From Streptomyces sp. NBC_01216 (lineage in GTDB: Bacteria; Actinomycetota; Actinomycetes; Streptomycetales; Streptomycetaceae): a DNA stretch of 64,000 bases. How positions within the stretch are numbered: the stretch's first letter is position 1; each line of letters starts with the position of its first letter. Below the pieces are notes generated by a model, which did no database searches, was not told the origin of the DNA, and worked only from the letters and a program-made list of their open reading frames with translations. Location: positions 2,852,001-2,916,000 of the forward strand of contig NZ_CP108677.1 in NCBI RefSeq assembly GCF_035994945.1, written 5' to 3'. Both the position numbers and the translations under genes were made by a program. Shown here in pieces: positions 7,259 through 28,949 of this stretch.

Positions 7259-7470
7259 ACGTGTCTCTCGCTCGCGTCCCATCGCTTCGCCGCCCATCCC
7301 GCCCCCCCGTCGGAGCGCCCCCGGCGGCGCGTCCGGACCCGGGCACGCCGCGACTTCGCCCGTCGTGACACGTGTCGTGCGCGTTCGTGCGGGGCGTACT
7401 GCCTGCGTCAGCATGGGGGGACAGGCCGTGACAGCTTACTGGGGCCCTCCGGGCACGGGGTCGTGCCTCA

Positions 7471-7505
7471 GAGGCTGTCGGTCGAGGGCCGCCCGGCAGG
7501 CCCTC
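7471..7505. repeat. Degenerate copy of the GAGCCTGTCGGGTG palindrome family
   Basis: GAGGCTGTCGG...GGCAGGCCCTC lies at the 3' end of the XRE gene. It is the weakest of six related palindromes in the window (others at 24949, 41238, 44931, 50877 and 52485). It may act as the terminator of the XRE gene. Confidence 0.5.
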
Positions 7506-7953
7506 AGTCCTGGGCGAGCGGGACCCGCCGGGCGGGCGTGGACGTGGACGGCAGGAACTGCCCCGCCACCCTGATGAACATCTCACGCTGGTCGGCGGCG
7601 ATGCCGAGACCTTCGGCGGCCTCCTCGAGCGTGAGCCTGCGCGTGCCGGACGTCGCCGGCCCCACCCCCGGCGACGGGGCCTGCGGGAGCGGCAGGTCCT
7701 CCTCGGTGAGCCGGCCGGAACGGATGAGCATCTCCCGCACCGACACGTCGAGGACGTGCGCGAGGCGCCGGGTGGTCTCCAGGTCCGGCATGGACTGCCG
7801 CTGGAGCAGGCGGGTGATCGCGGCGCGGTGGACGCCCGCCTCGTCGGCGAGCCGGGACTTGCCCCCGCCGCGCGGGCTGTCGATGTCGAAGCCGCGGCGA
7901 CGGATGAGCTCTTCGATCCAGGCGGCGAACTGGTCCAGGTCAGTGGCGGTCAT
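7504..7953 (-). CDS. XRE-family helix-turn-helix regulator of the tail island
   Basis: 149 residues. An N-terminal helical segment precedes an HTH at about residues 32-80 (KSRLADEAGVHRAAITRLL, then TRRLAHVLDVSV), typical of Cro/CI-like repressors. A Pro/Gly linker and a second short helical region (LTLEEAAEGLGIAADQREMF) follow, perhaps for dimerisation. The ATG at 7953 is preceded by GGGAGG. It is divergent from the WhiB-like gene, with 185 bases between them that carry candidate operators. By position it is the island's repressor; that role is inferred. Confidence 0.78.
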   Translation of the reverse strand: MTATDLDQFAAWIEELIRRRGFDIDSPRGGGKSRLADEAGVHRAAITRLLQRQSMPDLETTRRLAHVLDVSVREMLIRSGRLTEEDLPLPQAPSPGVGPATSGTRRLTLEEAAEGLGIAADQREMFIRVAGQFLPSTSTPARRVPLAQD

Positions 7954-7996
7954 GGGTGATGTCGCCTCCCTCCGAAGCGGACCCCAGAATATCGCG

Positions 7997-8008
7997 CTTG
8001 CGCGCACG
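7997..8008. promoter_or_regulatory. Candidate XRE operator, half-site type
   Basis: CTTGCGCGCACG matches the [GC]TTGC[GA][CA]GC[GTA]CG pattern found four times in the regulatory part of the island (also 8069, 8385 and 9986). It lies in the divergent promoter region between the XRE and WhiB-like genes. Confidence 0.35.
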
Positions 8009-8068
8009 GAATTACGTGCTCCTGCGCGCGCACGGTGTCGATTTGGCGAAGGGTGCCCGATCAAAGAA

Positions 8069-8088
8069 GTTGCGAGCGCGAGCGCAAC
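8069..8088. promoter_or_regulatory. Palindromic candidate operator upstream of the WhiB-like gene
   Basis: GTTGCGAGCGCGAGCGCAAC is an inverted repeat with GTTGCG/CGCAAC ends. It sits 50 bases before the WhiB-like start, and its left half matches sites at 7997, 8385 and 9986. It is a plausible binding site for the XRE protein. Confidence 0.45.
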
Positions 8089-8138
8089 ATGTCAGTGTGC
8101 GGGTTCGCAACATCCATTCCGACCCCGGAGACCGCCTG

Positions 8139-8438
8139 ATGCACCCGCCCGAAGCGCCGGAGACCGACGACTGGCGCGCCGCCGCCGCCTGCGTGGGGCT
8201 CTCTCCCCTGATCGTGTTCGCCCGGCGCGAGGATGAGGCCCGACCTGCACTGACGGCGTGCGGCCGATGCCCGGTGGCCCGCCGCTGCGAGGAGGTGGTG
8301 GCACCCGCGGACAGCTACTTCGACGGGGTCTCCGCCGGACGCCTCTGGCGCAACGGCCGACCGGTCCGCGCCCGCCGCAAGGACGTTGCACGCTCGCGCG
8401 CTAGCGAACAGTCCGAACGCACCGGGCACCAGGCGTGA
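8139..8438 (+). CDS. WhiB-like (Wbl) iron-sulfur transcription factor, divergent
   Basis: 99 residues with the four Wbl cysteines at 18, 41, 44 and 50 (ACVG, CGRCPVARRC), expected to hold a [4Fe-4S] cluster. The usual Gly-Trp turn is altered to DGVSAGRLW, and the C-terminus is basic (RPVRARRKD), consistent with DNA or sigma-factor contacts. The ATG at 8139 was chosen because upstream in-frame sequence reads through the regulatory region. Wbl proteins are common in actinophages and mobile elements. A role in switching the island is inferred. Confidence 0.85.
   Translation: MHPPEAPETDDWRAAAACVGLSPLIVFARREDEARPALTACGRCPVARRCEEVVAPADSYFDGVSAGRLWRNGRPVRARRKDVARSRASEQSERTGHQA
8385..8396. promoter_or_regulatory. 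Candidate operator within the 3' end of the WhiB-like gene
   Basis: GTTGCACGCTCG matches the island's recurring motif and is followed by a partial inverted arm (TAGCGAAC). It could act on the next gene, which starts at 8578. Confidence 0.3.
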
Positions 8439-8577
8439 CCGCTGCGCGACGCGTAGTCCCTCTACGCCACCGCGCCGATCCGCCGATGACGTCACGCGTA
8501 CGCCGCTCGGAGTGCGCACGTCCGGACCACCCGGGCGCCCCGGTTGTCCCTTGTTCACCGCACTGGCTGGAGGCTTC

Positions 8578-9294
8578 ATGACCACGCCCTCTCAGGACGC
8601 CGCCCTCTGGATCGAGGCGCTGCTGCGGCAGTTCCCCGAGCTGCTGTCCGAGCTCGCCCCGGGCCGGAGCGGCCCGTCGAACGGCTTCGCGGAGCGGCGG
8701 CCGACGGCGGGTGAGGCCGAGGAGCTGCGCCGGGAGCGCCGGGAGGCGCTGCTCATGGAACAACGGCACGGGCTGGCCGTGCCCGGTCACTCCGCCGCCC
8801 CGCTGCGGCTGTACGTCTCCGACGCCCTCCGGGACATCACCGACGGGGTCGTCGAGCTGGACGAGGCCGTCCACGACAAGCTCGGGCTGGGCAGGCCCCG
8901 CCACGCGCGGGTGCCGCAGCGCCTCGCACGGGTCCTCGCGCTGCTCGACAGGGCGGCGGACCACCCCACGCTCGTCGCACACGTCCGCGACGAGTCGCGC
9001 CGGATGGCCCGTCGTTGCGCCCGCGCACTCGGGGACAGCGAGTCGATGGTGCGGGTACGCGGGCGTTGCCCGTGGTGCGCGTCGGTGTCGCTGCGCGCTT
9101 TCCCCGCCCGCCGCGCGGTGCTGTGCGTCAACCCCGCGTGCCGCTGCGAGGACGAGCGGTGCGACTGCCACAGCGATCCGGCCTACCGGCACGTCTGGCG
9201 GGAGGCCGACTGGGCGGGACTGGCCGCGGCGGGCGCCGACCGTGCCGAGATCGCCGCGTCCATGGACACCGCGGACGAGGGGGTGCGCCGATGA
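8578..9294 (+). CDS. Actinophage-type zinc-ribbon protein of unknown function
   Basis: 238 residues. The N-terminal two thirds are helical and charged. The C-terminal part carries a cysteine cluster at 164, 167 (CPWC), 183, 188, 190, 195 and 197 (CVNPACRCEDERCDCH) that should bind zinc, perhaps two ions. No catalytic motif is recognised. It overlaps the next gene by ATGA, so the two are translationally coupled. Position among regulators suggests a DNA- or RNA-binding regulatory role, but this is only inference. Confidence 0.7.
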   Translation: MTTPSQDAALWIEALLRQFPELLSELAPGRSGPSNGFAERRPTAGEAEELRRERREALLMEQRHGLAVPGHSAAPLRLYVSDALRDITDGVVELDEAVHDKLGLGRPRHARVPQRLARVLALLDRAADHPTLVAHVRDESRRMARRCARALGDSESMVRVRGRCPWCASVSLRAFPARRAVLCVNPACRCEDERCDCHSDPAYRHVWREADWAGLAAAGADRAEIAASMDTADEGVRR

Positions 9295-9479
9295 CCACCG
9301 CCGCGGCCCCCCTGATCAACGCGACCCTGGCCGCCGAGGAGGCGGGGGTCGTCCCCGCCACGATCCGCAAGTGGGTGCAGCTCGGGCACCTGGTCCCGGC
9401 CGGCCGTCAGGGCCGCGCGCTGCTCTACCGGCTCGAGGACGTGTTCGCCGCCGAGCGGACCGCGCGCCGCGGGCCGTAG
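9291..9479 (+). CDS. Small MerR/excisionase-like helix-turn-helix protein
   Basis: 62 residues, almost entirely one winged HTH: ATLAAEEAGVVPATIRKWVQ followed by the GHLVPAGRQGRALLY wing and a short helix. This resembles HTH_17/MerR-type DNA-binding domains without an effector domain. It is coupled by four-base overlap to the zinc-ribbon gene and followed directly by a double hairpin terminator. Likely a small regulator. Confidence 0.72.
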   Translation: MTTAAAPLINATLAAEEAGVVPATIRKWVQLGHLVPAGRQGRALLYRLEDVFAAERTARRGP

Positions 9480-9481
9480 CG

Positions 9482-9557
9482 GGTCCGTGGACCGGGCCCC
9501 GGCCGGTCCACGGACCAGGAAGAGGTGGCCGCCCCCGCATCGGGGGCGGCCACCTCT
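9482..9557 (+). terminator. Double hairpin terminator closing the regulatory operon
   Basis: Two perfect inverted repeats in series: arms of 14 bases (GGTCCGTGGACCGG / CCGGTCCACGGACC) and of 17 bases at 9521-9537 / 9541-9557. They separate the early plus-strand genes from the convergent minus-strand gene that ends at 9574, so the element probably works in both directions. Confidence 0.85.
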
Positions 9558-9573
9558 CACGTCTGTCCCGGGC

Positions 9574-9867
9574 TCATGTCCCGGAATCCCCCTCGGGGCG
9601 CATCCGCAGGACCTGGGCGCTCACCCTCGCCCCACCGCACGCGGTCTGCGCGGGCGCGGCCCGCAGAGCCTCCTGCCACCCGCTCGTGAACCCGCGGATC
9701 TCCGCGTCCACGGCGATCCTGGCGCCGACCTTGCCGACCACTGCCGTGAGCGTGCGCGCGACCTCTCCCGTGTAGCTCCCGCGCTCCCCCGCCTCGGCGG
9801 CGACTTCCACGGCTGCCGCGACCACCTCGGTAAGCCGCTCCTGCGCACTGCCACCTCCGTCGACCAC
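9574..9867 (-). CDS. Small helical protein behind a predicted SOS box; possible island activator
   Basis: 97 residues with no recognised family. The first half is strongly helical (AQERLTEVVAAAVEVAAEAG), followed by GSYTGEVARTLTAVVGKVGA and FTSGWQEALRAA. The GTG at 9867 (GTCGAC next) was preferred because GGCGGGG sits five bases upstream; a GTG at 9873 is the alternative. A near-consensus LexA site lies just upstream at 9882-9897, over the predicted transcription start of a weak promoter (minus-strand TACCCT at 9905-9910). It is divergent from the structural module. A damage-induced antirepressor or activator role is suggested by position only. Confidence 0.6.
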   Translation of the reverse strand: MVDGGGSAQERLTEVVAAAVEVAAEAGERGSYTGEVARTLTAVVGKVGARIAVDAEIRGFTSGWQEALRAAPAQTACGGARVSAQVLRMRPEGDSGT

Positions 9868-9881
9868 ACGCACCCCGCCTT

Positions 9882-9897
9882 TCGAATTTATGTTCGA
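9882..9897. promoter_or_regulatory. Near-consensus LexA/SOS box
   Basis: TCGAATTTATGTTCGA differs at one arm position from the actinobacterial LexA consensus TCGAAC-N4-GTTCGA. It lies 14 bases before the chosen start of the 97-residue gene and about 110 bases from the structural promoter, in a conspicuously AT-rich patch. Confidence 0.68.
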
Positions 9898-9985
9898 ATC
9901 TCTGAGGGTAGCGCCCTGTACGGGTGGGCGACCACTCGCCACGCGCGCGACCCCCTCCCCCTAAAGATCGACCTCGCACGAACTG

Positions 9986-10015
9986 GTTGCGCGCTCGCAC
10001 GATCTCAATCACAAT
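9986..10015 (+). promoter_or_regulatory. Promoter of the tail structural operon with overlapping operator
   Basis: TTGCGC (9987-9992) and CACAAT (10010-10015) are separated by 17 bases, a moderate match to the housekeeping-sigma consensus. The -35 box lies inside GTTGCGCGCTCG (9986-9997), one of four related sites in the island, so a repressor bound there would block the promoter. The first structural gene starts about 98 bases downstream. Confidence 0.5.
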
Positions 10016-10112
10016 AGGTGCAGCGGCGGAGCTGTGCCCGCATCCCTCCAGGGCACCGCTCCGCCGTTCCGCTTTCCCTGTCCCCCATCGGCAACAGGAG
10101 TGATGCCCCGTC

Positions 10113-10520
10113 ATGAGCTCAGCACCGAGCACCTTCCCGGACGTGGAGGCCATCGTCGTGGACCTCCTCTCCGACCGGGCCGAACTGGCGAGCGCGACCG
10201 TCGACGACACCCCGCCCGCGGGCTTCGACGGCACCCAGCAGGCGGTGATCGTCTCCCGCCGCGGAGGCGCCTGGATCGACGACCTCCATCTCGACCAGCC
10301 GCTGATCGAGCTGGAGTGCTACGGCCCCGACAAGGCGACGGCACACCTGCTGGCCAACGCGGCGCGCGCCGAACTCCTGGCCGCGGCCGGCACGGCGTAC
10401 GGCGCGACGCAGATCACCGACGTCGTCGAGGCCGACGGCCCGCGCTGGCTTCCCGACTACCTCTACACCGCCGCCAACCGCTACCTCTGCGTGCTGCGGC
10501 TCTCCCTCCGTACGGCCTGA
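10113..10520 (+). CDS. Putative tail terminator / tail completion protein
   Basis: 135 residues, matching in size and position the small protein that caps the head-proximal end of siphophage tails. It begins with FPDVEAIVVDLLSDR, contains a conserved-looking IELECYGPDKATAHLLANAA segment and ends in a beta strand (YLCVLRLSLRTA). It is the first gene of the structural operon and lies directly before the tube gene, as in typical siphophages. The assignment relies on synteny and overall pattern rather than a diagnostic motif. Confidence 0.65.
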   Translation: MSSAPSTFPDVEAIVVDLLSDRAELASATVDDTPPAGFDGTQQAVIVSRRGGAWIDDLHLDQPLIELECYGPDKATAHLLANAARAELLAAAGTAYGATQITDVVEADGPRWLPDYLYTAANRYLCVLRLSLRTA

Positions 10521-10543
10521 CCCCGGGCGCGTACCCACCGACC

Positions 10544-10567
10544 AGGCCCCGTCGCCCGACGGGGCCT
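10544..10567 (+). terminator. Intra-operon hairpin before the tube gene
   Basis: Perfect inverted repeat AGGCCCCGTC / GACGGGGCCT with a four-base loop, followed by TTG. It sits between the tail terminator and tube genes, so it may be a partial terminator or an mRNA 3'-end stabiliser. Confidence 0.65.
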
Positions 10568-10616
10568 TTGCCGTACCCACGGCAGCCCACCGCACCACCC
10601 ATCACAAGGAGAAACC

Positions 10617-11213
10617 ATGGCAGGCAACAACGCCTCCGAGATCCGCGTGGCCGGCACCGGCCGCATCCTCGTCGCCGAGGTCGGCGCCGCCCTTCCGACC
10701 GCCTTCACCGGCGACTCCGCCGCCGACTGGGGCAGCGGCTGGGTCGACCTCGGCTACACCTCCACCGACGGCGTGGCCTTCTCCAAGAAGGACAAGCTCG
10801 ACCCGGTGGAGACCTGGCAGTCGATCAGCCCGGCCCGGTTCGTCTACGCGGACCGCGACCTGACGCTGAAGTTCTCGATGCTCCAGTTCAACGAGGACAC
10901 CCTGCCCTTCTTCCTGGGTGGCAAGAAGACGGACTTCCGCCACGACAACGCCACCAACCCGGGTGTGTACGAGTTCGACGTCCCGGACGGCCCGAGCTTC
11001 GACGAGCGGGCCCTGGGCCTGGAGTTCACCGACGGCTCCGCGGTCACCTACCGCTTCGTCATCCCGCGCGGCCAGGTGACGGCGACCGACGACCTCAAGC
11101 TCGCCCGCAAGGCCGCGGCGATGCTCGGAGTCACCTTCACCGCCCTGTCGCCGGGCGAGGGCCAGGCACTCGCCACCTTCGTCATGAAGGACGCGGCGTA
11201 CACCACCGCGTAA
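10617..11213 (+). CDS. Major tail tube protein
   Basis: 198 residues. The pattern is that of siphophage tube subunits: an extended N-terminus (MAGNNASEIRVAGTGRILVA), a start-domain phrase WVDLGYTSTDGVAFSKK, a beta-rich core (LTLKFSMLQFNEDTLPFFLG) and a C-terminal KLARKAAAMLGVTFTAL strand. It would polymerise into the hollow tube. It has an AAGGAG ribosome site and is flanked by two hairpins, consistent with a strongly expressed monocistronic segment. No contractile sheath gene accompanies it, so the tail is predicted to be non-contractile. Confidence 0.83.
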   Translation: MAGNNASEIRVAGTGRILVAEVGAALPTAFTGDSAADWGSGWVDLGYTSTDGVAFSKKDKLDPVETWQSISPARFVYADRDLTLKFSMLQFNEDTLPFFLGGKKTDFRHDNATNPGVYEFDVPDGPSFDERALGLEFTDGSAVTYRFVIPRGQVTATDDLKLARKAAAMLGVTFTALSPGEGQALATFVMKDAAYTTA

Positions 11214-11221
11214 CACCCTCG

Positions 11222-11259
11222 CGGGCGGGTGCCGGCCCCGCGCGGCCGGCACCCGCCCG
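11222..11259 (+). terminator. Hairpin after the tube gene
   Basis: A perfect 16-bp stem (arms starting CGGGCGGGTGCC) with a six-base loop, eight bases past the tube stop. It would uncouple abundant tube mRNA from downstream genes. Confidence 0.75.
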
Positions 11260-11305
11260 GCACCACCCGTTCCCCCGCTCCTCCTCAGACACGGAGAACA
11301 CATCC

Positions 11306-11596
11306 ATGGCTTCCTTCGACGTCAACGCCGCCCGCGCCCAGCGCATGGAGGCGCTCGGCCGCTCCTGGTCCTTCGAGCTCGACGGCGACACCTTCCAGCT
11401 GCCCACCGAACTCTCCCGCTCCGTGGCCAAGGGCCTGCGCGGGCTCGACGACAACGACGTGGACGGGCTGCTGAGGCTCCTGATGGGCGAGGAGCAGTTC
11501 GGTCGCTTCGAGACCCACGACATCACCATGCAGGACATCGCCGCGATCCTCGAGGCGTACGGCAAGGAGACGGGGCTGGGCCTGGGGGAAGGCTGA
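11306..11596 (+). CDS. Tail assembly chaperone, short (G-type) product
   Basis: 96 residues: MASFDVNAARAQRMEALGRS, then an FELDGDTFQLPTELS beta segment and DIAAILEAYGKETGLGLGEG. This fits the upstream member of the siphophage chaperone pair that coats the tape measure before tube polymerisation. The stop overlaps a slippery G-run, and a second open frame continues in the -1 register from that exact point. Both products are therefore expected, with the short one in excess. Confidence 0.8.
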   Translation: MASFDVNAARAQRMEALGRSWSFELDGDTFQLPTELSRSVAKGLRGLDDNDVDGLLRLLMGEEQFGRFETHDITMQDIAAILEAYGKETGLGLGEG

Positions 11597-12006
11597 GCCT
11601 CGACGCGTTCGCCGAAGAACACGCCGAGGCCCTCGAAGCCGACCTGCTGCGGCACTACGGCGTGGACCTGCTCGACTGGCACCGCGGCCGGCTCTCCTCC
11701 CGCCGGCTCGCGGTGCTGGTGAAGCACATGCCACAGGACAGCGCCGTGGGCCGCGAACTGCACGGCGAGGACTCCCAGTGGACGGTCACCGACTATCTGC
11801 TGGCCGCCGCCGTGGACCACCTGGCCGCCGCGAACTGGATGTTCGCCTCCGTCAACACGGACGAGGACTCCGACCCGCCGGAGGCCCCGGTCCCGGTGCC
11901 GCGGCCGGGTGACGGCGACCGCCCGTCGGATGCGGGCGGGGCGACTCCGGAGGAGCCGGAACCCGAGGGCCCGAGCCGGGCGGAGCTGATGCGCTTCTTC
12001 GCGTGA
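11306..12006 (+). CDS. Tail assembly chaperone, long (G-T) frameshift product
   Basis: Predicted fusion made by a -1 shift at G GGG GAA (11584-11590). The zero frame ends at TGA 11594-11596. The -1 frame is open from the slippery site, reading RLSLDAFAEEHAEALEADLL and then HYGVDLLDWHRGRLSSRRLA, down to a stop at 12006, about 233 residues in all. The T part has the (R/Y)YGVDLLDW pattern seen in actinophage tail chaperones, and its first Met is far inside the domain, which argues against independent initiation. A disordered acidic linker (DEDSDPPEAPVPVP) precedes the C-terminal RAELMRFFA. Confidence 0.75.
11584..11590 (+). other. Programmed -1 frameshift site
   Basis: GGGGGAA, in codons G GGG GAA, two codons before the zero-frame TGA. 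P-site re-pairing GGG to GGG is perfect. A-site re-pairing GAA to GGA is imperfect but acceptable in phage tail frameshifts. The downstream frame is open for 139 codons. Confidence 0.7.
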
Positions 12007-12061
12007 GCCGTGCGGGATTCCGAGAATCATCGCCTTCCTTTGCGGCTCGCGCACCCGCGAC

Positions 12062-12124
12062 GCCGGCGAGGATTTCACTCAGCCGGCGGGGAATTCTTTC
12101 GTCCGGCGCGGAGTCCTTTCACCT
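12062..12124 (+). repeat. Three imperfect 20-22-base tandem units
   Basis: Units beginning GCCGGCGAGGATTTC, GCCGGCGGGGAATTC and CCGGCGCGGAGTCC follow each other without gaps in the 198-base gap between the chaperone stop and the antisense DUF3592 gene. The rest of that gap holds nothing recognisable. Possible operator array or insertion scar. Confidence 0.4.
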
Positions 12125-12204
12125 GGAACCGCGGCCGTCGACTTCCGCACACGGGGAGGGCCACCGCCTTCCGGCCGGGAGCCGGAAAGAATGCCATGGC
12201 CGTC

Positions 12205-12588
12205 TCAGAATACATAGGCGCCGAGGATCACGACGGCTCCCAGATTCAACACGACGGCTCCGAAAGCGAACCTGAAAACCCTCCCTATCGACAGGGGCAG
12301 GAATTCGCAGTTGGCAGGGTTTCGGGGGCTGTAGGCGACGGGGATCTCGTCGCCTACAGCCGCCAGCACCGTCTTCTGGTCCATGTTCGACACTTCGCGC
12401 TCCACCCCCTCCGGGTCCACGAAGACACCCACGGTGACGACTCCCTGCTTTCCCCATTCATGCCGCACACAGGTACCCACGGCCGGCCGCCATCGCATTC
12501 GAAGAGCGATGGCTCGAAAGAGAAGCCTGTTGATGATGAACAGCGCCGCCGCCCCCAGAAAAGCGACCGCCCCCCACAAAATAATCAT
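12205..12588 (-). CDS. DUF3592-like membrane protein inserted antisense in the tail operon
   Basis: 127 residues. An N-terminal membrane helix (MIILWGAVAFLGAAALFII) is followed by a soluble beta domain (RPAVGTCVRHEWGKQG, DEIPVAYSPRNPANCEF) and a C-terminal helix (FAFGAVVLNLGAVVILGAYV), the DUF3592 layout. The ATG at 12588 has GGGGG eight bases upstream. It is the only minus-strand gene inside the structural module and its base composition is more AT-rich than its neighbours. It breaks the usual chaperone–tape-measure adjacency, so it was probably acquired later. An immunity-type role against a neighbour is possible but not shown. Confidence 0.65.
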   Translation of the reverse strand: MIILWGAVAFLGAAALFIINRLLFRAIALRMRWRPAVGTCVRHEWGKQGVVTVGVFVDPEGVEREVSNMDQKTVLAAVGDEIPVAYSPRNPANCEFLPLSIGRVFRFAFGAVVLNLGAVVILGAYVF

Positions 12589-12649
12589 TGCTCGTACCCC
12601 CAGTCGCCACGAGTAAGAATCGACACATAGTAGCACCCGGAGGTATAGG

Positions 12650-13264
12650 TTGATCGACGATCCAGGCATAGAAGGGCAGACCGTCACCCGCGGAGAACTG
12701 AGCAGCATCCTCTCGGATTTCAAGAAGGCGCTGGAGGCGAAATCACAAGGGCCGGCCGAGGAACTATTCGGTAAGTGGACTCCGGGATCGGAGTCCTGGA
12801 ACGAGGCGGCCCAGGACGTCTACTTCAGCAATCAGTGGTTCAAGTGGGATATGGAAGCCGTGTCCGTCACACCGGACGGCCTCAAGGTCGCCGGAAAGAC
12901 GGTCATCGACTTCCAGAAGTATCTCGTCGAACCCGTCTTGGAACTGGTCAAGAAGCCATTCGAAGCGAAACTCGACCAGGTCTCCGAGCTTTTCGATTTC
13001 ACGCCCGGTGAGCCGTCTCGCCCCGTCGCGGGAGAGCTGGAGTCCCGAGAGGGCCGGAGTCAGCGCGTGCGCGGGGAGATCGACAACCGCGTGGCGGACG
13101 CCGAGCGGGTCGCCGCCGACATCGCCCGGCTGCAACGCAAGGCGAACAAGTCGCACGGGCAGATGCGCGAGAACTTCATCGCCATGCGCAACATCCGCAC
13201 GCAGGAGTTCGCCGGCCTGGAGCGGGAGATCGGCAGGCTCTCCGCGCTGCTCTCAGGGGGCTGA
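12650..13264 (+). CDS. Unknown coiled-coil protein, possible cargo
   Basis: 204 residues, no recognised family. The start is TTG at 12650, five bases after a strong GGAGGT; no ATG fits. The N-terminal half is mixed (FKKALEAKSQGPAEELFGKW, SNQWFKWDMEAVSVTPDGL), and the C-terminal half from about residue 125 is a long charged helix likely to form a coiled coil (RVADAERVAADIARLQRKAN). No signal peptide or membrane segment. Early codons are less GC-biased than neighbours. It is divergent from the DUF3592 gene and directly before the tape measure genes, so the two may form a foreign pair. Confidence 0.6.
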   Translation: MIDDPGIEGQTVTRGELSSILSDFKKALEAKSQGPAEELFGKWTPGSESWNEAAQDVYFSNQWFKWDMEAVSVTPDGLKVAGKTVIDFQKYLVEPVLELVKKPFEAKLDQVSELFDFTPGEPSRPVAGELESREGRSQRVRGEIDNRVADAERVAADIARLQRKANKSHGQMRENFIAMRNIRTQEFAGLEREIGRLSALLSGG

Positions 13265-13311
13265 GAGGACGATGAGGAAACCCGCCGTCAGCAGCAGACC
13301 GAAGGACGGAC

Positions 13312-15797: not shown

Positions 15798-15833
15798 ACG
15801 CGTTCCCCGACAGAAGTGAGGTGACGGCCCGTC

Positions 15834-16769
15834 ATGGCCGAGACCACAAACGCATACCGAAGCGAGACCGCACCCGGCTCACTGATCACCCGCGACGGGC
15901 AGATCCAGTGGGCCGGACTGCTGATGGGCCCCGGCACGCCCTACCCGGTCGACCGAACGGGTATCACCGGCTGGGACGACCTGCCGGCCCTCGACACCGG
16001 CGACATCCCCCGCCCCGACCAGCACGGTTCCTGGCCCGGTGCCCGCTGGGCGCAGCCGCGGCTGGTCGGCGCGACCGTCTGGCTGCTCCCCGAGGACGCC
16101 TCCCGGGCCCGCGAGGTCACTTCGGACTTCCGGGCGGCCACCGGAGCCGAGGGCGGCGAGCGGTGGCTCGCGGTCCGGCTGCACGGCGAGACGCTCGCCG
16201 TGCGGGCGCGGGTCAGCCGGCGAGTCGTCCCCCAGGACCGCTCGTACCTCCACGGCGGCACCTCCAGGACCAGCCTCCAGTGGACCGCGACCGACCCGCG
16301 CCGCTTCGGCGCCGAACTGCGCCAGGGCCGTACCGTCCTGCCTCGGACCGAACCCGGCCTCGTCTGGGGAAGCGCCGTGGCCAACGGACTGGAGTTCCCG
16401 CTCGACTGGGGCGGAACCGGCTCCGCGGGTTCGCTCACCGCCGTCAACGCGGGCTCCGCGGCGAGTCATCCGGTCGTCGAGTTCCGGGGCCCGCTGCGCC
16501 GGCCGACCCTGACCCGGCTGTCCGACGGACGGCAGCTCCAGTACGACATCGTGCTCGGCCCGCAGGACGTCCTGACCGTCGACACCGAGGCGGGCACCGT
16601 CCTCCTCAACGGCTCCGCGTCCCGGCTCTACACCGCGACCTCCACGTCCTCGCCCGAGCAGCTGTTCCTCTTCGCCCCGGGCAGCACCGCGCTGGCCTTC
16701 CGGTCGGACGACGCCACGCCCGACCCGGCCGCCTCGGTGACCGTGCTGTGGCGTGACGCCCACTGGTGA
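15834..16769 (+). CDS. Distal tail (Dit-like) protein
   Basis: 311 residues. It follows the tape measures, the usual place of the hub-adapter that links tube and fibres. The N-terminal half contains a typical Dit-like core (RWAQPRLVGATVWLLPEDAS, then GGTSRTSLQWTATDPRRFG). The C-terminal half is a galectin-like beta domain (PVVEFRGPLRRPTLTRL, DVLTVDTEAGTVLLNG). This pattern is common in phage tail family proteins of actinobacteria. Functional inference is good; no enzymatic motif is present. Confidence 0.75.
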   Translation: MAETTNAYRSETAPGSLITRDGQIQWAGLLMGPGTPYPVDRTGITGWDDLPALDTGDIPRPDQHGSWPGARWAQPRLVGATVWLLPEDASRAREVTSDFRAATGAEGGERWLAVRLHGETLAVRARVSRRVVPQDRSYLHGGTSRTSLQWTATDPRRFGAELRQGRTVLPRTEPGLVWGSAVANGLEFPLDWGGTGSAGSLTAVNAGSAASHPVVEFRGPLRRPTLTRLSDGRQLQYDIVLGPQDVLTVDTEAGTVLLNGSASRLYTATSTSSPEQLFLFAPGSTALAFRSDDATPDPAASVTVLWRDAHW

Positions 16770-16824
16770 CCGGCCGCGGCCCCCGAATCCCCTCGTCCCG
16801 TACGTCATCTCCCAGGAGGACCAC

Positions 16825-18030
16825 ATGCCCGTGCGCAGCGCATGGCTGATCAACCGCACCGAGACCGAGTCCGGCCAGTCCCGCACCGACACCCGTCTCT
16901 CGCCCACCGGGACCCTCGCCCCGAGCGGGGCGCTCACCACGGCCTCCGGCGTCATCCCCGGGTCCCTGAACGGTGAGCACCTCATGTCGGGCCTGTACGT
17001 GTACGGCGAGGCGACGGGCATGACGGCGAACGTCGCGCCGGGACGCGCCGTCGTCCAGGGCGGCGCCCAGGCCGGGGCCTACCCGGTCGTGCTGACCGAC
17101 TACACCCCGGTCACCTTCGAGGACGGCGACCCGCTCAACGCGCGTGTCGACCTCGTGGTGGTCCGGGTCTACGACGCCCAGTTCGAGGGCACCCGCACCG
17201 AGGCGACGCTGGAGATCGTCAAGGGCACGCCGGCGTCGGTACCGGAGCCGCCGGCCCTTCCCGACGGTGCGCTCCTGCTGGCCCAGGTCACCGTGCCGGC
17301 GGGAGCCTCGGTCGGTACCGGTGGCATCGACTGGCCGACCGCCGTCTACGACCTGCGCCACTCCACCGTCGCCGTCGGCGGCATCCTCGCCGAGGCGTGG
17401 AACCGCGACGTGCCGGGCGGCTACAAGGGGCAGTACCGCGACACCTCGGCCCAGCTCCAGCGCTGGGACGACGGCCGCTGGGTCTCCTACCCGCGCCAGG
17501 TCGGCGGCATCGCGCCGCAGGGCGCGCTGGCCGCGGGCGACTACGCGGGCCAGTACCGCGACGAGGGCGGACGCCTCCAGCGCTGGGACGGCACGGTGTG
17601 GCGCCCGGCCGTGGCGGCCCCGGCGAGCGCCTACGCCTTCCACAGCGACGGCGGGTACACGACCTCCACCACGTGGGTCGAGACCGTCACCGACACGACC
17701 GGTCCCACGATCACCGCGACGTTCACCGCGCCGGTCTCGGGAGCGGTCCTGGTGACGGTCGGCTTCATGGGCTACCCGCTGGCCGACGGCGAGTGGGCGA
17801 AGATGTCCGCCAACATCCGCAAGAACGGCGCCCTGGTGCTCGCCGCCGACGAGACCCGCGCCGCCCAGGCCGCGCACAAGGGCGGCTCGCACTCGGTCTG
17901 CCACACCTTCCGCGTCGGCGGGCTGGAGCCGGGCGCCACGCACACCGCCGTCTCCGCCTACCTGACCTCGGCGGCCAGCAGCCGGGCGTGGTTCGACAAC
18001 CGCTACCTCCGCGTCGACCCGGTCCTGTGA
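16825..18030 (+). CDS. Tail tip / fibre protein with duplicated Trp-rich motif
   Basis: 401 residues. The ATG was chosen for its AGGAGGA site seven bases upstream. The N-terminal half resembles a receptor-binding-protein attachment domain (LYVYGEATGMTANVAPGRAV, ARVDLVVVRVYDAQFEGTRT). Two similar units follow, GQYRDTSAQLQRWDDGRWVS and GQYRDEGGRLQRWDGTVWRP, about 40 residues apart. The C-terminal domain (TGPTITATFTAPVSGAVLVT) is a beta sandwich. The duplicated LQRWDG..W unit could be a carbohydrate-binding element. It overlaps the next gene by GTGA. Confidence 0.72.
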   Translation: MPVRSAWLINRTETESGQSRTDTRLSPTGTLAPSGALTTASGVIPGSLNGEHLMSGLYVYGEATGMTANVAPGRAVVQGGAQAGAYPVVLTDYTPVTFEDGDPLNARVDLVVVRVYDAQFEGTRTEATLEIVKGTPASVPEPPALPDGALLLAQVTVPAGASVGTGGIDWPTAVYDLRHSTVAVGGILAEAWNRDVPGGYKGQYRDTSAQLQRWDDGRWVSYPRQVGGIAPQGALAAGDYAGQYRDEGGRLQRWDGTVWRPAVAAPASAYAFHSDGGYTTSTTWVETVTDTTGPTITATFTAPVSGAVLVTVGFMGYPLADGEWAKMSANIRKNGALVLAADETRAAQAAHKGGSHSVCHTFRVGGLEPGATHTAVSAYLTSAASSRAWFDNRYLRVDPVL

Positions 18031-19145
18031 GTACGCCGGTGAACAACTCCCCGACGACCCCGGTCTACCGGGCTCTCTTCTGCGACCTGCGCACCGACCG
18101 GGTGCTCGACGTGCTGCCGCTGACGGAGGCCAAGTTCGACGACTTCATCGGCAAGCCGGGCTCGCTCACCGCGACCGTCCCCCTGCCGGAGGGCAGGCTG
18201 GCCGTCCGGGCGCGGGACGCCCTGCGGCCCGGCCGTACCGCCGTCTGGCTGGAGCGGGACGGCGACATCTGGTGGGGCGGAGTGCTGTGGACCTGCACTC
18301 CGGCCTCGGACGAGCAGGGCCGGCTGAAGGTCCAGTTCCAGGCGGGCACCTTCGACTCGTACCTCGATCACCGGATCCTCTCCGGCGACCTGGCCGGCAC
18401 GGCCGCCGACCAGTTCGACATCGCCAGGACGCTCGTCACCCACGCCCAGGAACAGCCCGGCGGTGACATCGGCATCAGCCTCGGCCACGAGCTCTCGGGC
18501 GTCACCCGGGACTACGCGTACGACTACTCGGCCCTGGGCCGGGTGCGGGAGCTGCTCGACAAGCTGGCCCAGCCGGCCGACGGGTTCGAATGGCGCGTCC
18601 ACTGCTACCGGGACACCCAGGGCCGCCGCGTGAAGCGGCTCCAGCTGGGACATCCCCGGATCCAGACCGGCCACTTCGACATCGTCCTCGACCACCCCGG
18701 ACAGGTCCTCACCTACAGCCTGCCGGCCGATTCCACGGTGCAGGCCAACGTCTGGGTGGCCCGCGGCGAGTCGGCCAACACCGACCAGGCGCAGGAGTCC
18801 CGGCCGCTGACCGTGCGCGAGGAGACACCGGACGACCTGACCGGCGGATGGCCCCGCCTGGAGCAGACCTCCGACCACAGCGGCGTGCGGGACGGGGACA
18901 CGCTGCGCTCCCTGGCCCGCGCCGAACTGTCCCGCCAGAACCGGCCCGAGACCATCCCGGAACTCACCGTCCTGCTCGACGGCCGGATCACCCCGGCGCT
19001 GCTCGGGGCCCGCGTCCGGCTGCGGATCCACGACCTGTGGCACCCGGAGGGACTCGACCGTCCGTACCGGATCGTCGGCCTCGCCGTGAACCCGCCGCAG
19101 CGCACCAAGGCCGAGACGGCCACGCTCTACCTGGAAGGGGTGTAG
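18027..19145 (+). CDS. Tail hub / tip protein (Tal- or gp27-like)
   Basis: 372 residues. It starts with GTG in a four-base overlap. It matches siphophage hub proteins by position and pattern: YRALFCDLRTDRVLDVLPL, GSLTATVPLPEGRLA, WLERDGDIWWGGVLWTC, QFQAGTFDSYLDHRIL and the C-terminal RVRLRIHDLWHPEGLDRPY ending in TATLYLEGV. Such proteins close the tube tip and position fibres. No peptidase or lysozyme motif was found, so cell-wall hydrolysis would depend on the separate amidase. Confidence 0.78.
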   Translation: MSTPVNNSPTTPVYRALFCDLRTDRVLDVLPLTEAKFDDFIGKPGSLTATVPLPEGRLAVRARDALRPGRTAVWLERDGDIWWGGVLWTCTPASDEQGRLKVQFQAGTFDSYLDHRILSGDLAGTAADQFDIARTLVTHAQEQPGGDIGISLGHELSGVTRDYAYDYSALGRVRELLDKLAQPADGFEWRVHCYRDTQGRRVKRLQLGHPRIQTGHFDIVLDHPGQVLTYSLPADSTVQANVWVARGESANTDQAQESRPLTVREETPDDLTGGWPRLEQTSDHSGVRDGDTLRSLARAELSRQNRPETIPELTVLLDGRITPALLGARVRLRIHDLWHPEGLDRPYRIVGLAVNPPQRTKAETATLYLEGV

Positions 19146-19148
19146 CGG

Positions 19149-19865
19149 ATGGCGATCATCCCCACCGACCTGCTCGACCGGATCCGCGGCCTGGAGCGTC
19201 AGGTCCGCGACCTGATGGGCAGTGCCAACACCTCGCCGCCGCTGAACCTCATCAGCGGCGGCGAAGTCGTCATCGGCGAAGGCGGCCGACTGCGGGTGCG
19301 GACATCCGGCGGCGAGGACCTGCTCTATCTCGGGCGGGTCGAGCCCGACCGGGACGAGGACACCCCGCAGCAGGGGTTCGTGGTCCGGCGGGACGACGGC
19401 TCACTGGCGCTGACGGTGTGGACGGGCAGCCCGGACACCCTCCCGGTGCAGCCGGTGCAGATCCTCGACCGGCGGGGGAACGTGGTCGTCGCCGACGACG
19501 CCGCCCGCGGAGGTCTGGCCCGCCCCTACATCCCGTACCCGCTGCCCGAGCCCGTCGACACCGGACGCTGGGAGTCGACCGGATCGACGACCTGGACCAC
19601 CCTGTACAGCGGCCCCGGCATCGCCCAGCACTCCCGGCTGCACGGCCGGATCGCCGTTCAGGGCACCGCCGGCGCGGAGGTGCGGCTGCTGGTGGACGGC
19701 GTCCAGGTGGGACCGGCCGGCACGACGGGCGCGGGCCTGGTGTTCACCGAGCCCATCACCCCGCAGTTCGGGGCGACGGTCACCTTCGAGGTCCAGGCCA
19801 GGGTCGCCGCGCCGGGTGACACCGTGCGCTGCCGCCCGCTGGCCCTGTACGGCGTCCAGTCCTGA
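19149..19865 (+). CDS. Minor tail protein, tip/fibre-associated
   Basis: 238 residues. A short N-terminal helix (TDLLDRIRGLERQVRDLMGS) could trimerise the chain. A beta-rich region (GGEVVIGEGGRLRVRTSGGE) is followed by a C-terminal jelly-roll-like domain (HSRLHGRIAVQGTAGAEVRL, ITPQFGATVTFEVQARV). It lies three bases after the hub gene and before a strong hairpin. Likely part of the tip complex; the precise role is unknown. Confidence 0.65.
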   Translation: MAIIPTDLLDRIRGLERQVRDLMGSANTSPPLNLISGGEVVIGEGGRLRVRTSGGEDLLYLGRVEPDRDEDTPQQGFVVRRDDGSLALTVWTGSPDTLPVQPVQILDRRGNVVVADDAARGGLARPYIPYPLPEPVDTGRWESTGSTTWTTLYSGPGIAQHSRLHGRIAVQGTAGAEVRLLVDGVQVGPAGTTGAGLVFTEPITPQFGATVTFEVQARVAAPGDTVRCRPLALYGVQS

Positions 19866-19870
19866 GCCCT

Positions 19871-19906
19871 GGTGGGGGACCGGACCGACCGGTCCGGTCC
19901 CCCACC
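19871..19906 (+). terminator. Intra-operon hairpin before the fibre gene
   Basis: Perfect 16-bp inverted repeat with a GACC loop (GGTGGGGGACCGGACC and its complement), five bases after the minor tail gene stop. Confidence 0.75.
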
Positions 19907-19977
19907 GGCTCCTCCTCGCCGCGCCGCGGCGCGGCGCGCCCGCCCCGCCCGGCACCTTCCCGACCCAAGGAGTCACC

Positions 19978-21423
19978 GTGCTGCCCCCGTCCATTCCCAC
20001 CGTTCAGATCACCGCCCGCTACCTGACCCCGGACGGCGGCCCGATGAGCGGATCGGTCGAGTTCCGGCCGCCCGCGCTGCTCACCCACGCGGAATCCGAC
20101 GTCTTCGTCGGCGGGCCGACCCGCGCCACCCTCGACGGCGAGGGCCGGATCAGCGTCGTGCTGCCGGCCACCGACCTGCCCGGCTGGAACCCGGTCGACT
20201 GGACCTACCGCGTCACCGAGAAGCTCGGCGGACTCGAACGCGTCCGGACCTACCAGATCGCACTGCCCGCCGCCGTCCCCGTCGTCGACCTCGCCGACAT
20301 CCGCCCCGCCGACCCGAACACACCGAACTACGTGGCCGTTCCGGGTCCTCCCGGCCCCGCCGGGGAACTCGGCCCGGAGGGCCCGGCCGGGCCCGTCCGC
20401 TCCGTGAACGGCCGCACCACCCCGGACATCACCCTCACCGCCGCCGACGTCTCCGCGCTCGCCGCCGCCGCGGCGGGAGCGGCGGGTGGCGTGGCCACGC
20501 TCGGCGCCGACGGCAAGGTCCCGGCGGCCCAGCTGCCCGCCGCCGGCGGCGCCGTGGCCTCCGTCAACGGCCAGACCGGGACGGTCGTCCTGACCGCCGC
20601 CGATCTGAGCGCGCTGACCCAGGCCGCCGGCGACCTGCGGTACATGGCGATCGACGGGGCCCCGGTCACCTCCGTCAACGGGCAGGCCGGCGCGGTCCAG
20701 CTCGACGCCGCCGACGTGTCGGCCGTCCCGTCCGGCGACGCCGTCCTGCTCGACGGCTCGCAGACGGTCACCGGGACGAAGAGCTTCACCGTCCCCCCGT
20801 CCACCACCGCCTCCCCCGCCACGGCCGACCAGCTGACCCGCCGCGGCTACGTCGACGCGGTGTCCGCCGCCGGCACCTGGTCCCCGGCCGCCCTCGGCTT
20901 CTCCGGCTGGGCCTTCGACCCGGCCGCCGCCTCCGCCGACCAGGCCCAGTACTGCACCAACGGCACGGTCTACCTGATCGGTGTCCCGCTGCACGCGGCG
21001 ACCACCGTGCGGAACGTGGTCTTCTACGTGCCGGGATACGTCGGCGGCACCCTGAGCGCCTCCTCGTACGCCGGGCTCTACACCAGCGCGGGCAGCCGGG
21101 TCGGCCTGACCGCCGCCCTCACCACGCTGATCCCGGCGACCGAGGGCACCACCGTCGTCTGCCCGCTCGCCACCCCGTACGAAGCCCAGGCCGGTCACTA
21201 CTGGGTCGGCCTGGTCGTCAACGGCCCCAGCCCCAGCTACAACGGGCCCGCCTTCCTGCGGGGCGCGAGCGTCGGCGACTTCCCGGGCGGCAGCGCCCGG
21301 ATGCCGAACGCCTTCATCCGGCACGGCCGGCTCGGGACGACCGGACAGACCTCGCTCCCGACGTCCTTCAACCCCACGACCGTGGTCGCCGACGCCAACG
21401 CCGTCTGGGCCGCGCTGGCCTGA
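19978..21423 (+). CDS. Receptor-binding tail fibre with collagen-like segment
   Basis: 481 residues, GTG start preceded by AAGGAG. An N-terminal beta domain (residues 1-115) with a DLPGWNPVDWTYRVTEKL phrase, as in actinophage fibre heads, is followed by a collagen-like stretch (GPPGPAGELGPEGPAGP). Three repeats of the type SVNGQTGTVVLTAADLSAL alternate with DLRYMAIDG-like spacers, the pattern of trimeric fibres. The C-terminal domain (about 300-481; AAGTWSPAALGFSGWAFDPA) is probably the receptor binder. It stands alone between two hairpins. Host range is likely determined here. Confidence 0.8.
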   Translation: MLPPSIPTVQITARYLTPDGGPMSGSVEFRPPALLTHAESDVFVGGPTRATLDGEGRISVVLPATDLPGWNPVDWTYRVTEKLGGLERVRTYQIALPAAVPVVDLADIRPADPNTPNYVAVPGPPGPAGELGPEGPAGPVRSVNGRTTPDITLTAADVSALAAAAAGAAGGVATLGADGKVPAAQLPAAGGAVASVNGQTGTVVLTAADLSALTQAAGDLRYMAIDGAPVTSVNGQAGAVQLDAADVSAVPSGDAVLLDGSQTVTGTKSFTVPPSTTASPATADQLTRRGYVDAVSAAGTWSPAALGFSGWAFDPAAASADQAQYCTNGTVYLIGVPLHAATTVRNVVFYVPGYVGGTLSASSYAGLYTSAGSRVGLTAALTTLIPATEGTTVVCPLATPYEAQAGHYWVGLVVNGPSPSYNGPAFLRGASVGDFPGGSARMPNAFIRHGRLGTTGQTSLPTSFNPTTVVADANAVWAALA

Positions 21424-21458
21424 GACCCGTCGGCCCACCCGCCCACCGATCCACACCC

Positions 21459-21495
21459 GACGCCCCGCGCGGTCCTCAGGACCGCGCGGGGCGTC
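21459..21495 (+). terminator. Hairpin between fibre and lysis genes
   Basis: Near-perfect inverted repeat with arms of 17-18 bases (GACGCCCCGCGCGGTCC and complement) 36 bases past the fibre stop. Confidence 0.75.
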
Positions 21496-21531
21496 CGGCT
21501 TCACCCCGCCCCACCCACGGAAGGAATCCCC

Positions 21532-22437
21532 ATGGCCACTCCCCTCTCCGCGGACCGGCTCCTCGCCGCCCTGCGCGCCGAGGGCGTCACCGTCGTCGAA
21601 CACGACGGCTGGCGCACCCACCACCGCGACCACGTCGGCGCCTGGGGCCCGGTCAACGGCGTGATGATCCACCACACCGTCTCCAGCGGCACCGCGTCCT
21701 CCGTCGAGCTCTGCTACGACGGCTATGCGGGGCTCCCCGGCCCTCTGTGCCACGGCGTCATCGCCAAGGACGGCACCGTCCACCTGGTCGGCAACGGCCG
21801 CGCCAACCACGCGGGCGGCGGCGACCCGTCCGTCCTCCAGGCCGTGATCACCGAGACCTACGGGGACCGGCCGCCGGCCCCGCGCGAGCACCAGGGCAGT
21901 TCCGGCGCCGTCGACGGCAACGCCCGCTTCTACGGGTTCGAGTGCGTCAACCTCGGCGACGGCTCGGACCCCTGGCCCCCGGAACAGCTCGACGCGATCG
22001 AGCGCGTCTCGGCCGCCGTCTGCCGCGCCCACGGCTGGGGCGCCAAGTCGGTCATCGGGCACCTGGAATGGTCCGACTGGAAGAGCGACCCCCGCGGCTT
22101 CGGCATGCCGGGCCTGCGCGACCGGGTCCAGGCCCGGCTCGGCGCCGCCCCCGCGAAGGCCGCCTCGGCCCGGCCGGACACCCCGCGTCACGAGCCGTTC
22201 CCCGGAGCCTCCTTCTTCAAGGCCCGTCCCAGCTCCCCGATCGTCACCGCGATGGGCCGCCGGCTGATGGCCGAAGGCTGCGCGGAGTACCGGATCGGAC
22301 CGGGGCCGCGCTGGACGGACGCCGACCGGCGCGCCTACGCCGCCTGGCAGCGCAAGCTCGGCTTCACCGGCTCCGACGCCGACGGCTGGCCCGGCCGCGC
22401 CTCCTGGAACGCCCTGAAGGTCCCGCACACCACGTGA
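21532..22437 (+). CDS. Amidase endolysin (Amidase_2 with C-terminal peptidoglycan-binding domain)
   Basis: 301 residues. N-terminal zinc amidase domain: His47/His48 (VMIHHTVSS), His177 (VIGHLEWSDW) and Asp186 (KSDPRG) are the likely catalytic and zinc residues of the Amidase_2 fold. After a linker (about 205-220) the C-terminus has RRLMAEGCAEYRIGPGPRW and QRKLGFTGSDADGWPGRASW, a peptidoglycan-binding type 1-like module common in actinophage lysins. No signal peptide, so export would need the holin next door. It has an AAGGAA ribosome site. In this island it would release tail particles. Confidence 0.88.
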   Translation: MATPLSADRLLAALRAEGVTVVEHDGWRTHHRDHVGAWGPVNGVMIHHTVSSGTASSVELCYDGYAGLPGPLCHGVIAKDGTVHLVGNGRANHAGGGDPSVLQAVITETYGDRPPAPREHQGSSGAVDGNARFYGFECVNLGDGSDPWPPEQLDAIERVSAAVCRAHGWGAKSVIGHLEWSDWKSDPRGFGMPGLRDRVQARLGAAPAKAASARPDTPRHEPFPGASFFKARPSSPIVTAMGRRLMAEGCAEYRIGPGPRWTDADRRAYAAWQRKLGFTGSDADGWPGRASWNALKVPHTT

Positions 22438-22512
22438 CGCCCCCGGGGAGAAGCAGCGAGTGCGCCCCTCACCACTCCCCGGAACACCGCACCGAAGCAC
22501 GAGGAGACACCC

Positions 22513-22755
22513 ATGTCCGATGCCGCCCAGCGCACGGTACGCACCGTCCTCCAGTCAGCCGTCGGCATCGCCGTCGTGCTGCCCGCCGTCGTCGACGCCT
22601 CCGGGATTCCGGCCTCCCTCCCCTGGGTCGCCGGAGCGCTGGCCGTCGCGGGAGCCCTGACCCGGATCATGGCCCTGCCCGGGGTGCAGGAGCTGCTGCC
22701 GCCCTGGCTGGGCGGCACCCCGGAAGACGCGGGGGACGCCGATGACCGAGGCTGA
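22513..22755 (+). CDS. Holin
   Basis: 80 residues with two closely spaced hydrophobic segments (LQSAVGIAVVLPAVVDASGI and LPWVAGALAVAGALTRIMAL), a short polar N-terminus and an acidic C-terminus (EDAGDADDRG). This layout, small size and placement next to the endolysin are typical of actinophage holins. It overlaps the next gene by 14 bases. Function is inferred from topology and context. Confidence 0.8.
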   Translation: MSDAAQRTVRTVLQSAVGIAVVLPAVVDASGIPASLPWVAGALAVAGALTRIMALPGVQELLPPWLGGTPEDAGDADDRG

Positions 22756-23005
22756 GCCGAACGACCCGATCACCGTGGCCGTCGAGCTGGAACGGCTCCG
22801 GGGCACCCTGGAGGCCGGCTTCGCCCGGGTCGACGGCGCGCTGGCGCTGCTCGTCCAGCGCAGCGACCAGACCGACAAGCAACTGGCCGACATGGAGTCC
22901 CGGCTGGACGCCCTGGAGCGCACCCGCTGGCCGTTGGCCAGCATCGCGGCGCTGACGGCGAGCGCGGGCCTGGTCCTCGCCGTCTGGGAGCTGGCCGGCC
23001 ACTGA
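22742..23005 (+). CDS. Small coiled-coil membrane protein (XhlA-like holin accessory)
   Basis: 87 residues. An N-terminal helical coiled coil (VELERLRGTLEAGFARVDGA, RSDQTDKQLADMESRLDALE) precedes one C-terminal membrane helix (LASIAALTASAGLVLAVWEL). This resembles haemolysin XhlA-type or phage small membrane proteins that assist holins. It overlaps the holin gene and is the last gene of the island. The following 253 bases to the next gene hold no recognised feature. Confidence 0.7.
   Translation: MTEAEPNDPITVAVELERLRGTLEAGFARVDGALALLVQRSDQTDKQLADMESRLDALERTRWPLASIAALTASAGLVLAVWELAGH

Positions 23006-25049: not shown

Positions 25050-28949
<3,900 letters not shown>

Follow-up and report, generated by a model that had tools for sequence, protein, structure and literature searches.

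We analysed a 64,000-nucleotide stretch of a Streptomyces chromosome (G000:C1:2852001-2916000; hereafter the window), in which an island of phage-tail genes occupies positions 7504-23005 between rpsL and rpoC (Table 1). Comparison of 23 proteins encoded at 6.8-24.7 kb with Pfam and PHROGs confirmed that the island encodes a non-contractile tail without a head, intact in its genes, together with lysis genes and regulators of its own. The tail morphogenesis set is complete from terminator through fibre, is of the non-contractile kind, and is followed by an amidase gene and two small holin-like genes. No credible family match to head, portal, integrase, or sheath proteins was found among the 23 proteins; the HTH_17 protein gives weak matches to terminase small subunits and excisionases (1.5e-4 to 8e-3) that rest on its helix-turn-helix. 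We rejected an active prophage as an explanation of the element, as head, packaging, and integration genes were not found among the scanned island proteins. For a contractile system or R-type tailocin, sheath and baseplate wedge families were likewise not found among the island proteins. On its gene families, the island is well supported as a probable F-type tailocin.

PF03354, PF05065, PF04860, and the sheath family PF04984 have no match in the whole genome. This does not mean that the genome lacks heads, because a separate prophage at 6.46 Mb (L069) encodes a portal, a scaffold, and a major head protein (PHROGs). This prophage also has a terminator, a tube, and a tape measure (1938 aa) of its own, and its tube is only 28% identical to that of the island, so it has no need of the island. 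We therefore consider it improbable that the tail serves another partner, for example in delivering or helping a phage or satellite, instead of killing. A prophage with head genes in the same genome and a small class of islands without a lysis-gene match (L057, L059, and L062) are consistent with such a role, but the prophage has its own tail genes, and amidase and holin-like genes are present in most islands whose right part was fetched.

An earlier note, made from the letters of this DNA alone, had proposed a tail-only, non-contractile island with lysis genes and its own regulators. Family matches to the regulator, tail, and amidase genes bear out the parts that it listed at their coordinates, and the negative results above agree with its account of an element free of head, portal, integrase, and sheath genes. 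The XRE, WhiB, and HTH_17/MerR-like regulators are recognized by family match, whereas the zinc-ribbon regulator is visible as Cys pairs by eye and has no Pfam match. The amidase (Amidase_2) stands as a lysis gene, but the holin is assigned by position only, its PHROGs function being unknown. The note's gene list named these parts but missed the slot at 12205-13264 and the opposite-strand gene within it. Head genes elsewhere in the genome, which the note said might complete a phage, do exist at 6.46 Mb, but in a prophage with its own tail that does not complete the island. In the literature searched, with preprints and most subscription papers outside its scope, we found neither a non-contractile tailocin in Streptomyces nor a tailocin immunity protein.

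Table 1. Features of the island and its flanks (window positions)
Feature	Position	Strand	Evidence
rpsL, left chromosomal flank	5766..6137	-	98-99% identical in printed matches of 295 genomes
XRE repressor-like gene	7504..7953	-	HTH_3 3.3e-8; phrog_3949 7e-14
WhiB-like regulator	8139..8438	+	PF02467 1e-6
Cys-pair protein, zinc-ribbon-like by eye only	8578..9294	+	no Pfam match
HTH_17/MerR-like regulator	9291..9479	+	HTH_17; phrog_2474 1.2e-13
Small gene mE, start uncertain, window's sub-lineage	9574..9942	-	related open reading frame in many loci
LexA/SOS-box-like operator CGAATTTATGTTCG	9883..9896	.	pattern match to the presumed consensus
Tail terminator	10113..10520	+	phrog_123 4.8e-24
Tail tube	10617..11213	+	PF25681 5.2e-65
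Chaperone G	11306..11596	+	phrog_10551 1.5e-27
GGGGGAA, presumed -1 slip site for G to G-T	11584..11590	+	
Chaperone T	11602..12006	+	phrog_3656 1.4e-27; presumably frameshift-read
Gene D, two-transmembrane (TM) DUF3592-like membrane protein, candidate immunity	12205..12588	-	PF12158 weak 0.017; own profile
Gene U, evolving fast; candidate tape-measure-like effector with a long C-terminal helix	12650..13264	+	predicted structure
Tape measure 1 (TMP1), 399 aa	13312..14511	+	phrog_3981 1.8e-32
Tape measure 2 (TMP2), 429 aa	14508..15797	+	phrog_3981 4.9e-27
Dit-like distal tail protein	15834..16769	+	phrog_5577 3.7e-93; SPP1_Dit
phrog_3398 structural protein	16828..18030	+	phrog_3398
Tail hub/minor tail protein	18027..19145	+	phrog_1885 9.6e-93; 54% to ToastyFinz gp18
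Tip protein	19149..19865	+	phrog_9849
Tail fibre	19924..21423	+	phrog_14726 7.9e-144
Amidase endolysin	21532..22437	+	Amidase_2 6.8e-22
Small protein, holin candidate by position	22513..22755	+	phrog_4316, unknown function
Small protein, hydrophobic C terminus, holin/accessory candidate	22742..23005	+	phrog_5225, unknown function
rpoC, right chromosomal flank	25050..28949	-	

T lies in the -1 frame 3' of the slip motif, G and T together spanning 11306-12006. The product of mE has no family match in Pfam or PHROGs. In the 65 GTDB loci with a long left flank (about 10 kb), the XRE gene and the Cys-pair protein are always present, the HTH_17/MerR-like gene is present in 64, and the WhiB-like gene in 49. 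A PQQ_2/BamB-like gene at 23013-24743 separates the holin-like genes from rpoC in the window; L031 and L032 are among the relatives in which rpoC directly adjoins the island. The phrog_3398 protein belongs to the PHROGs category "head and packaging" (virion structural protein), and in the gene order of phage ToastyFinz it occupies a tail-tip position. Its gene, after Dit, occurs in one to four tandem copies in L037-L068, possibly encoding diversified receptor-binding proteins.

Retention, distribution, and chromosomal site

The island genes are under purifying selection, with ratios of nonsynonymous to synonymous substitution rates (dN/dS) of 0.08-0.60 against three relatives, the highest being those of TMP2 and the phrog_3398 protein. 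Over 14 genes, one of 1,218 best matches has an in-frame stop (TMP1, 1/109; none in the other 13); these matches include twelve duplicate loci and can end before a lesion, making this a lower bound on damage. The reading frames are thus intact, as the earlier note had it, and the frequent nonsense mutations that it named as contrary evidence were not seen, though L063, an 88% complete assembly, has several split genes. The GGGGGAA motif is kept in 113/115 loci. Tail and fusA distances are correlated (Mantel rho 0.529, p 0.001, 53 loci), the pattern that long co-inheritance with the chromosome would produce. The island is maintained by selection and inherited with the chromosome. Its likeness to siphophage tails of the Raleighvirus kind, the split genes of L063, and one eroded island (L166) would suit a decaying prophage remnant without present function; widespread retention, purifying selection, the near absence of stops, and the conserved slip motif make such a remnant highly improbable.

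The island is a widespread domesticated element. Tube protein matches were found in 84 of 295 Streptomyces genomes at E 0.001. Counted by hand from the match listing, a single full-length match at 54% identity or more is present in 49/295 genomes (the window's own among them); two further genomes have such a match in two pieces, and four have matches at 45-47%. The remaining matches are weaker. Two of the weak-match stretches, L053 and L054, have the appearance of ordinary prophages and contain a head-closure gene cluster that the L069 prophage also has. In an order-wide draw, 46/245 genomes match the tube at 1e-25, in two of eight genera. A GTDB scan gave 132 matching stretches, of which 80 loci were kept; by title, 77 are Streptomyces, with one each from Kitasatospora, Microtetraspora, and an "Actinobacteria bacterium." Among 2.9 million viral contigs, a pattern-based scan that can miss divergent forms returned two tube matches, at 34% over about half of the protein, and the best phage record matches at 33%.

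Two further island classes were observed. In the second (L045, L046, L048-L052, L056, and L058), the regulators, tube, and lysis genes are related, the tape measure and tip (Dit-like c22 and the ~790-aa c23) differ, and neither rpsL nor rpoC lies within the fetched 20 kb. L036 and L061 have the second-class tip beside rpoC, so tips seem exchangeable. The third class, that of the three islands without a lysis-gene match, runs from terminator to hub with one tape measure and U (see below) and has few or no regulators; its neighbours are host genes, including a glycosyl hydrolase, a NACHT ATPase, and DNA polymerase III alpha.

rpsL lies beside the island in 56/65 GTDB loci with the long left flank, 3.0-7.4 kb from the tube gene. 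Among the nine without rpsL nearby, L093 (genome G078) has rpsL 13 kb away and rpoC on the right and is still at the rpsL-rpoC site. Seven loci besides the window, all headless, include both genes within one 20-kb stretch, and every gene called there matches a window island gene except the slot genes and clusters c16, c18, c21, c27, and c40. The search that the earlier note had suggested, for islands of this gene content and no head genes in the rpsL-rpoC interval, was positive in many species. We also fetched the rpsL side of 50 of the listed tube-negative genomes, picked for few contigs and with weak tube matches counted as negative. rpoC starts within 2.4 kb of rpsL in 40/50, which are empty sites; it lies 3.6-8.2 kb away in nine and was not reached in one. 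None of these 50 sites has tail genes, and one has an XRE relative. In G023 and G258, rpsL and rpoC are adjacent and the island is about 350 kb away.

For regulation, we used what we take to be the LexA/SOS-box consensus, both for the window site and for the locus counts. A LexA-like site lies between the regulators and the terminator gene in 25/92 loci, with two favoured positions. One, found mainly in the lineage of the window, is about 200-380 bp ahead of the terminator gene, and the other, in another class, is 1.2-1.5 kb ahead of it. The regulator interval has 0.121 such sites per kb, compared with 0.031 elsewhere; a looser pattern shows no enrichment in the interval. Induction by DNA damage may therefore apply to part of the family only.

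Genes U and D in a variable slot

The stretch between T and TMP1 is variable, and its last gene, which we call U, directly precedes TMP1 in 106/111 loci (28 of these by hand). Two of the five loci without U are the prophage-like L053 and L054. U is too divergent to have a credible family match; in the model of the window's U, a C-terminal helix of 78 residues is predicted with confidence and the middle only poorly, the mean predicted local distance difference test (pLDDT) score being 74. A second gene, D, lies in the slot of 47/111 loci. In counts of open frames that include duplicate genomes and a few frames that overlap, 74 of 77 D profile matches in the loci fall inside the slot, and 66 of these 74 are on the strand opposite to the tail genes. 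D is present in 44 of the 95 distinct U-bearing loci (43 detected by profile and L086 by eye), and twelve of these 44 hold two to five D matches, some of them fragments. The AlphaFold model of the window's D is a helix-beta domain-helix arrangement (mean pLDDT 90) in which two predicted long helices, hydrophobic by composition, surround the beta domain. D scores 16.2 bits against DUF3592 (PF12158), below the curated cutoff of 25.3, and we therefore call it "DUF3592-like." D is predicted to be a membrane protein encoded by a tailed-phage element, as superinfection-exclusion proteins are. Neither U nor D of the window has a match in 50,697 phage records.

Two of the unassigned clusters, c16 and c18, also occupy the slot, in many islands without D and some with it; carriers include L037, L039-L044, L047, L060, and L066-L068. 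These two were scanned against Pfam, and their L041 members have no match. By eye, they share the aromatic motif AYxAGWxDA, and similar motifs are seen at 6826-7371 and 9574-9942 of the window.

U and D are an adjacent, covarying pair that moves between backbones. Forty-five loci have both genes, and 41 were left after identical U were dropped. Using local alignment scores and ranks, and given the backbone (terminator, tube, and G), U covaries with D (r 0.215, p 0.0005, n=41). In the same 41 loci U does not covary with its other neighbours (TMP1, -0.027; T, 0.001), and the values for D are 0.012 with TMP1 and 0.089 (p 0.11) with T. Taking only the D nearest to U gives r 0.176 (p 0.0005), and the 30 single-D loci give r 0.154 (p 0.02). 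Thirteen pairs combine distant backbones (backbone below 0.75) with a D similarity above 0.35; in five of them U similarity is no higher than 0.07, and each of these five involves multi-D loci. When the nearest D is used (above 0.3), nine of ten backbone-distant pairs have U similarity of at least 0.14 and one is at 0.07; over all pairs, the median U similarity is 0.044 and the 95th percentile 0.13. Loci matched by extra D copies have U of lower similarity (median 0.136, n=17, versus 0.404, n=26; Mann-Whitney p 0.001).

D is also found where the tail is absent. We fetched 16 stretches around strong D matches, the majority of which are not near tube genes. In L166 an island has eroded: regulators, a D of near full length, part of U, and a remnant resembling a holin gene are left, and tail genes were not matched. 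L173, which shares its genome with L197, has no tail but carries D in the interval between rpoC and rpsL. In L228 (two D) and L229 (one D), picked because D was known there, D lies in the rpoC-rpsL gap and the tail is gone. A near full-length D with the tail gone is thus present in L166, L197, L228, and L229. L168 has three D between rpsL and the island; a 182-bp rpoC fragment, 88% identical, lies between these genes and the island (L168:15097-15277) and is a trace of rearrangement at the site.

Weighing the roles of U and D

From gene content, conservation, the slip motif, U-D covariation, D arrays, and left-behind D, all computed directly, we lean slightly toward the view that the headless tail is an F-type tailocin in which U is a lumen effector and D its cognate immunity protein. 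The opposite strand, the arrays, and the left-behind copies favour a protective role for D. A fuller version is more tentative, and we put it a little short of even: U would be an exchangeable, tape-measure-like lumen effector and D its cognate membrane immunity, with orphan D in arrays or after tail loss, providing kin discrimination across Streptomyces beyond receptor specificity.

Several observations weigh against the tailocin and effector-immunity reading. If D were immunity, every producer should carry it, and 51/95 distinct loci have U with no D in the slot; another slot membrane gene was not seen in most of these 51. The contrast between nearest and extra D is post hoc and comes partly from related loci, and recombination between the conserved T and TMP1 could move U and D together without a functional link. 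The D profile was seeded with slot sequences and is therefore biased toward slots. Members of the D family are widespread in the genus (195/295 genomes at 1e-5), 13 of the 16 stretches around strong D matches have no island, and D was present in one (L197) of 50 tail-less sites taken regardless of D. No LexA-like site was found in 67/92 loci. Finally, U has a TM segment of its own in 45/51 loci without D versus 13/44 loci with D; the window's U has no clear one.

This last pattern, in which U lacks a TM segment in 31/44 D loci and has one in 45/51 D-less loci (Fisher 4e-9, kinship ignored), fits a membrane-partner role for D. D would then be a partner or docking factor for those U without their own TM segment in an F-type tailocin, resembling CisA, which the Streptomyces contractile system needs. 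A membrane protein is described as required for function and firing of the contractile system of S. coelicolor (PMC12237407). We think this unlikely, as it does not predict that D is mostly opposite to the late operon, that arrays reach five D matches, or that D persists without a tail.

In another alternative, D is a passenger of the F-type tailocin, a superinfection-exclusion or defence moron acting against phages or the tails of other strains and not against its own U, with which it would travel solely through sharing an exchangeable slot. Such a passenger would explain why the D family is common outside islands and why islands without D exist, and the conserved genes flanking the slot may act as recombination arms. 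The D nearest to U, however, tracks U better than do extra copies, and no phage target is visible for the window pair among the phage records searched. We regard a passenger role as rather unlikely.

Returning to an effector U and an immunity protein D, we infer particles, induction, killing, ejection, and immunity as follows. The host would keep the headless non-contractile tail as a bacteriocin-like particle, with the repressor and other regulators holding the island silent; in the window's lineage, the LexA-like operator suggests release under DNA damage. The tail may be built on three lumen proteins (U, TMP1, and TMP2), and the amidase and holin-like proteins would lyse the producer. Hub and fibre would bind the released tails to relatives, and binding would eject the lumen proteins, so that U, or U with the tape measures, breaches the target membrane. 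The two-TM protein D is mostly encoded opposite to the late operon and so can be made outside it; D would protect its owner by blocking the cognate U, much as phage exclusion proteins may act at the tape measure. That U meets the target membrane and D blocks it is suggested by two literatures. A meeting report describes tape-measure ejection as the cell-puncturing step in a tailocin (PMC12908700), and membrane exclusion proteins are described as specific for long-tailed phages, with escape through changes in tape-measure or tail genes (PMC10883804).

If this is true, Streptomyces have a second widespread domesticated tail besides their contractile systems, at a preferred chromosomal site, and tailocin specificity depends on a toxin-immunity code, like those of bacteriocins and type VI systems, in addition to fibres and receptors. 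With U-D pairs as naturally matched reagents, one could ask which of the lumen proteins breaches the membrane and what prevents it, and how non-contractile tails kill becomes a testable question. We know of no dedicated immunity gene for F-type tailocins.

Comparison with known systems

The tip and lysis genes resemble those of Raleighvirus phages in order and sequence. The Streptomyces phage ToastyFinz has the same gene order as the island from tube to lysis genes, with identities of 54% for the hub, 38-55% for Dit, 43% for the phrog_3398 protein, 36% for the fibre, 32% for the phrog_9849 tip protein, and 49% for the phrog_5225 protein. Unlike the island, ToastyFinz has capsid, connector, and serine-integrase genes, and a single 683-aa tape measure (24% identical to TMP1) follows its chaperone directly, with no U or D between them. 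The island's terminator, tube, and G are unmatched in ToastyFinz at E 1e-2.

Phage-tail-like elements are described as widespread in Streptomyces (PMC8910223); these SLP/CIS elements are contractile, whereas the island has no sheath family match. HK97 gp15, TP-J34 Ltp, and Tuc2009 Sie2009 are reviewed as membrane-associated proteins of long-tailed phages that block DNA entry; for two of these proteins, escape has been mapped to genes of the tape measure or tail (PMC10883804). D, likened to them by its proposed role, differs in being DUF3592-like, in adjoining a headless tail, and in being coupled to U rather than TMP1.

The closest known parallels are the F pyocins of Pseudomonas and the monocin of Listeria, which, like the island as known from its genes, have a non-contractile siphophage-type tail; the monocin is described as an 18-gene ftb cluster ending in holin-lysin (PMC7076858). 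Likened to these by tail type, the island differs in its Streptomyces host, and a tape measure encoded in several pieces and a polymorphic U-D slot set it apart from known F-type tailocins.

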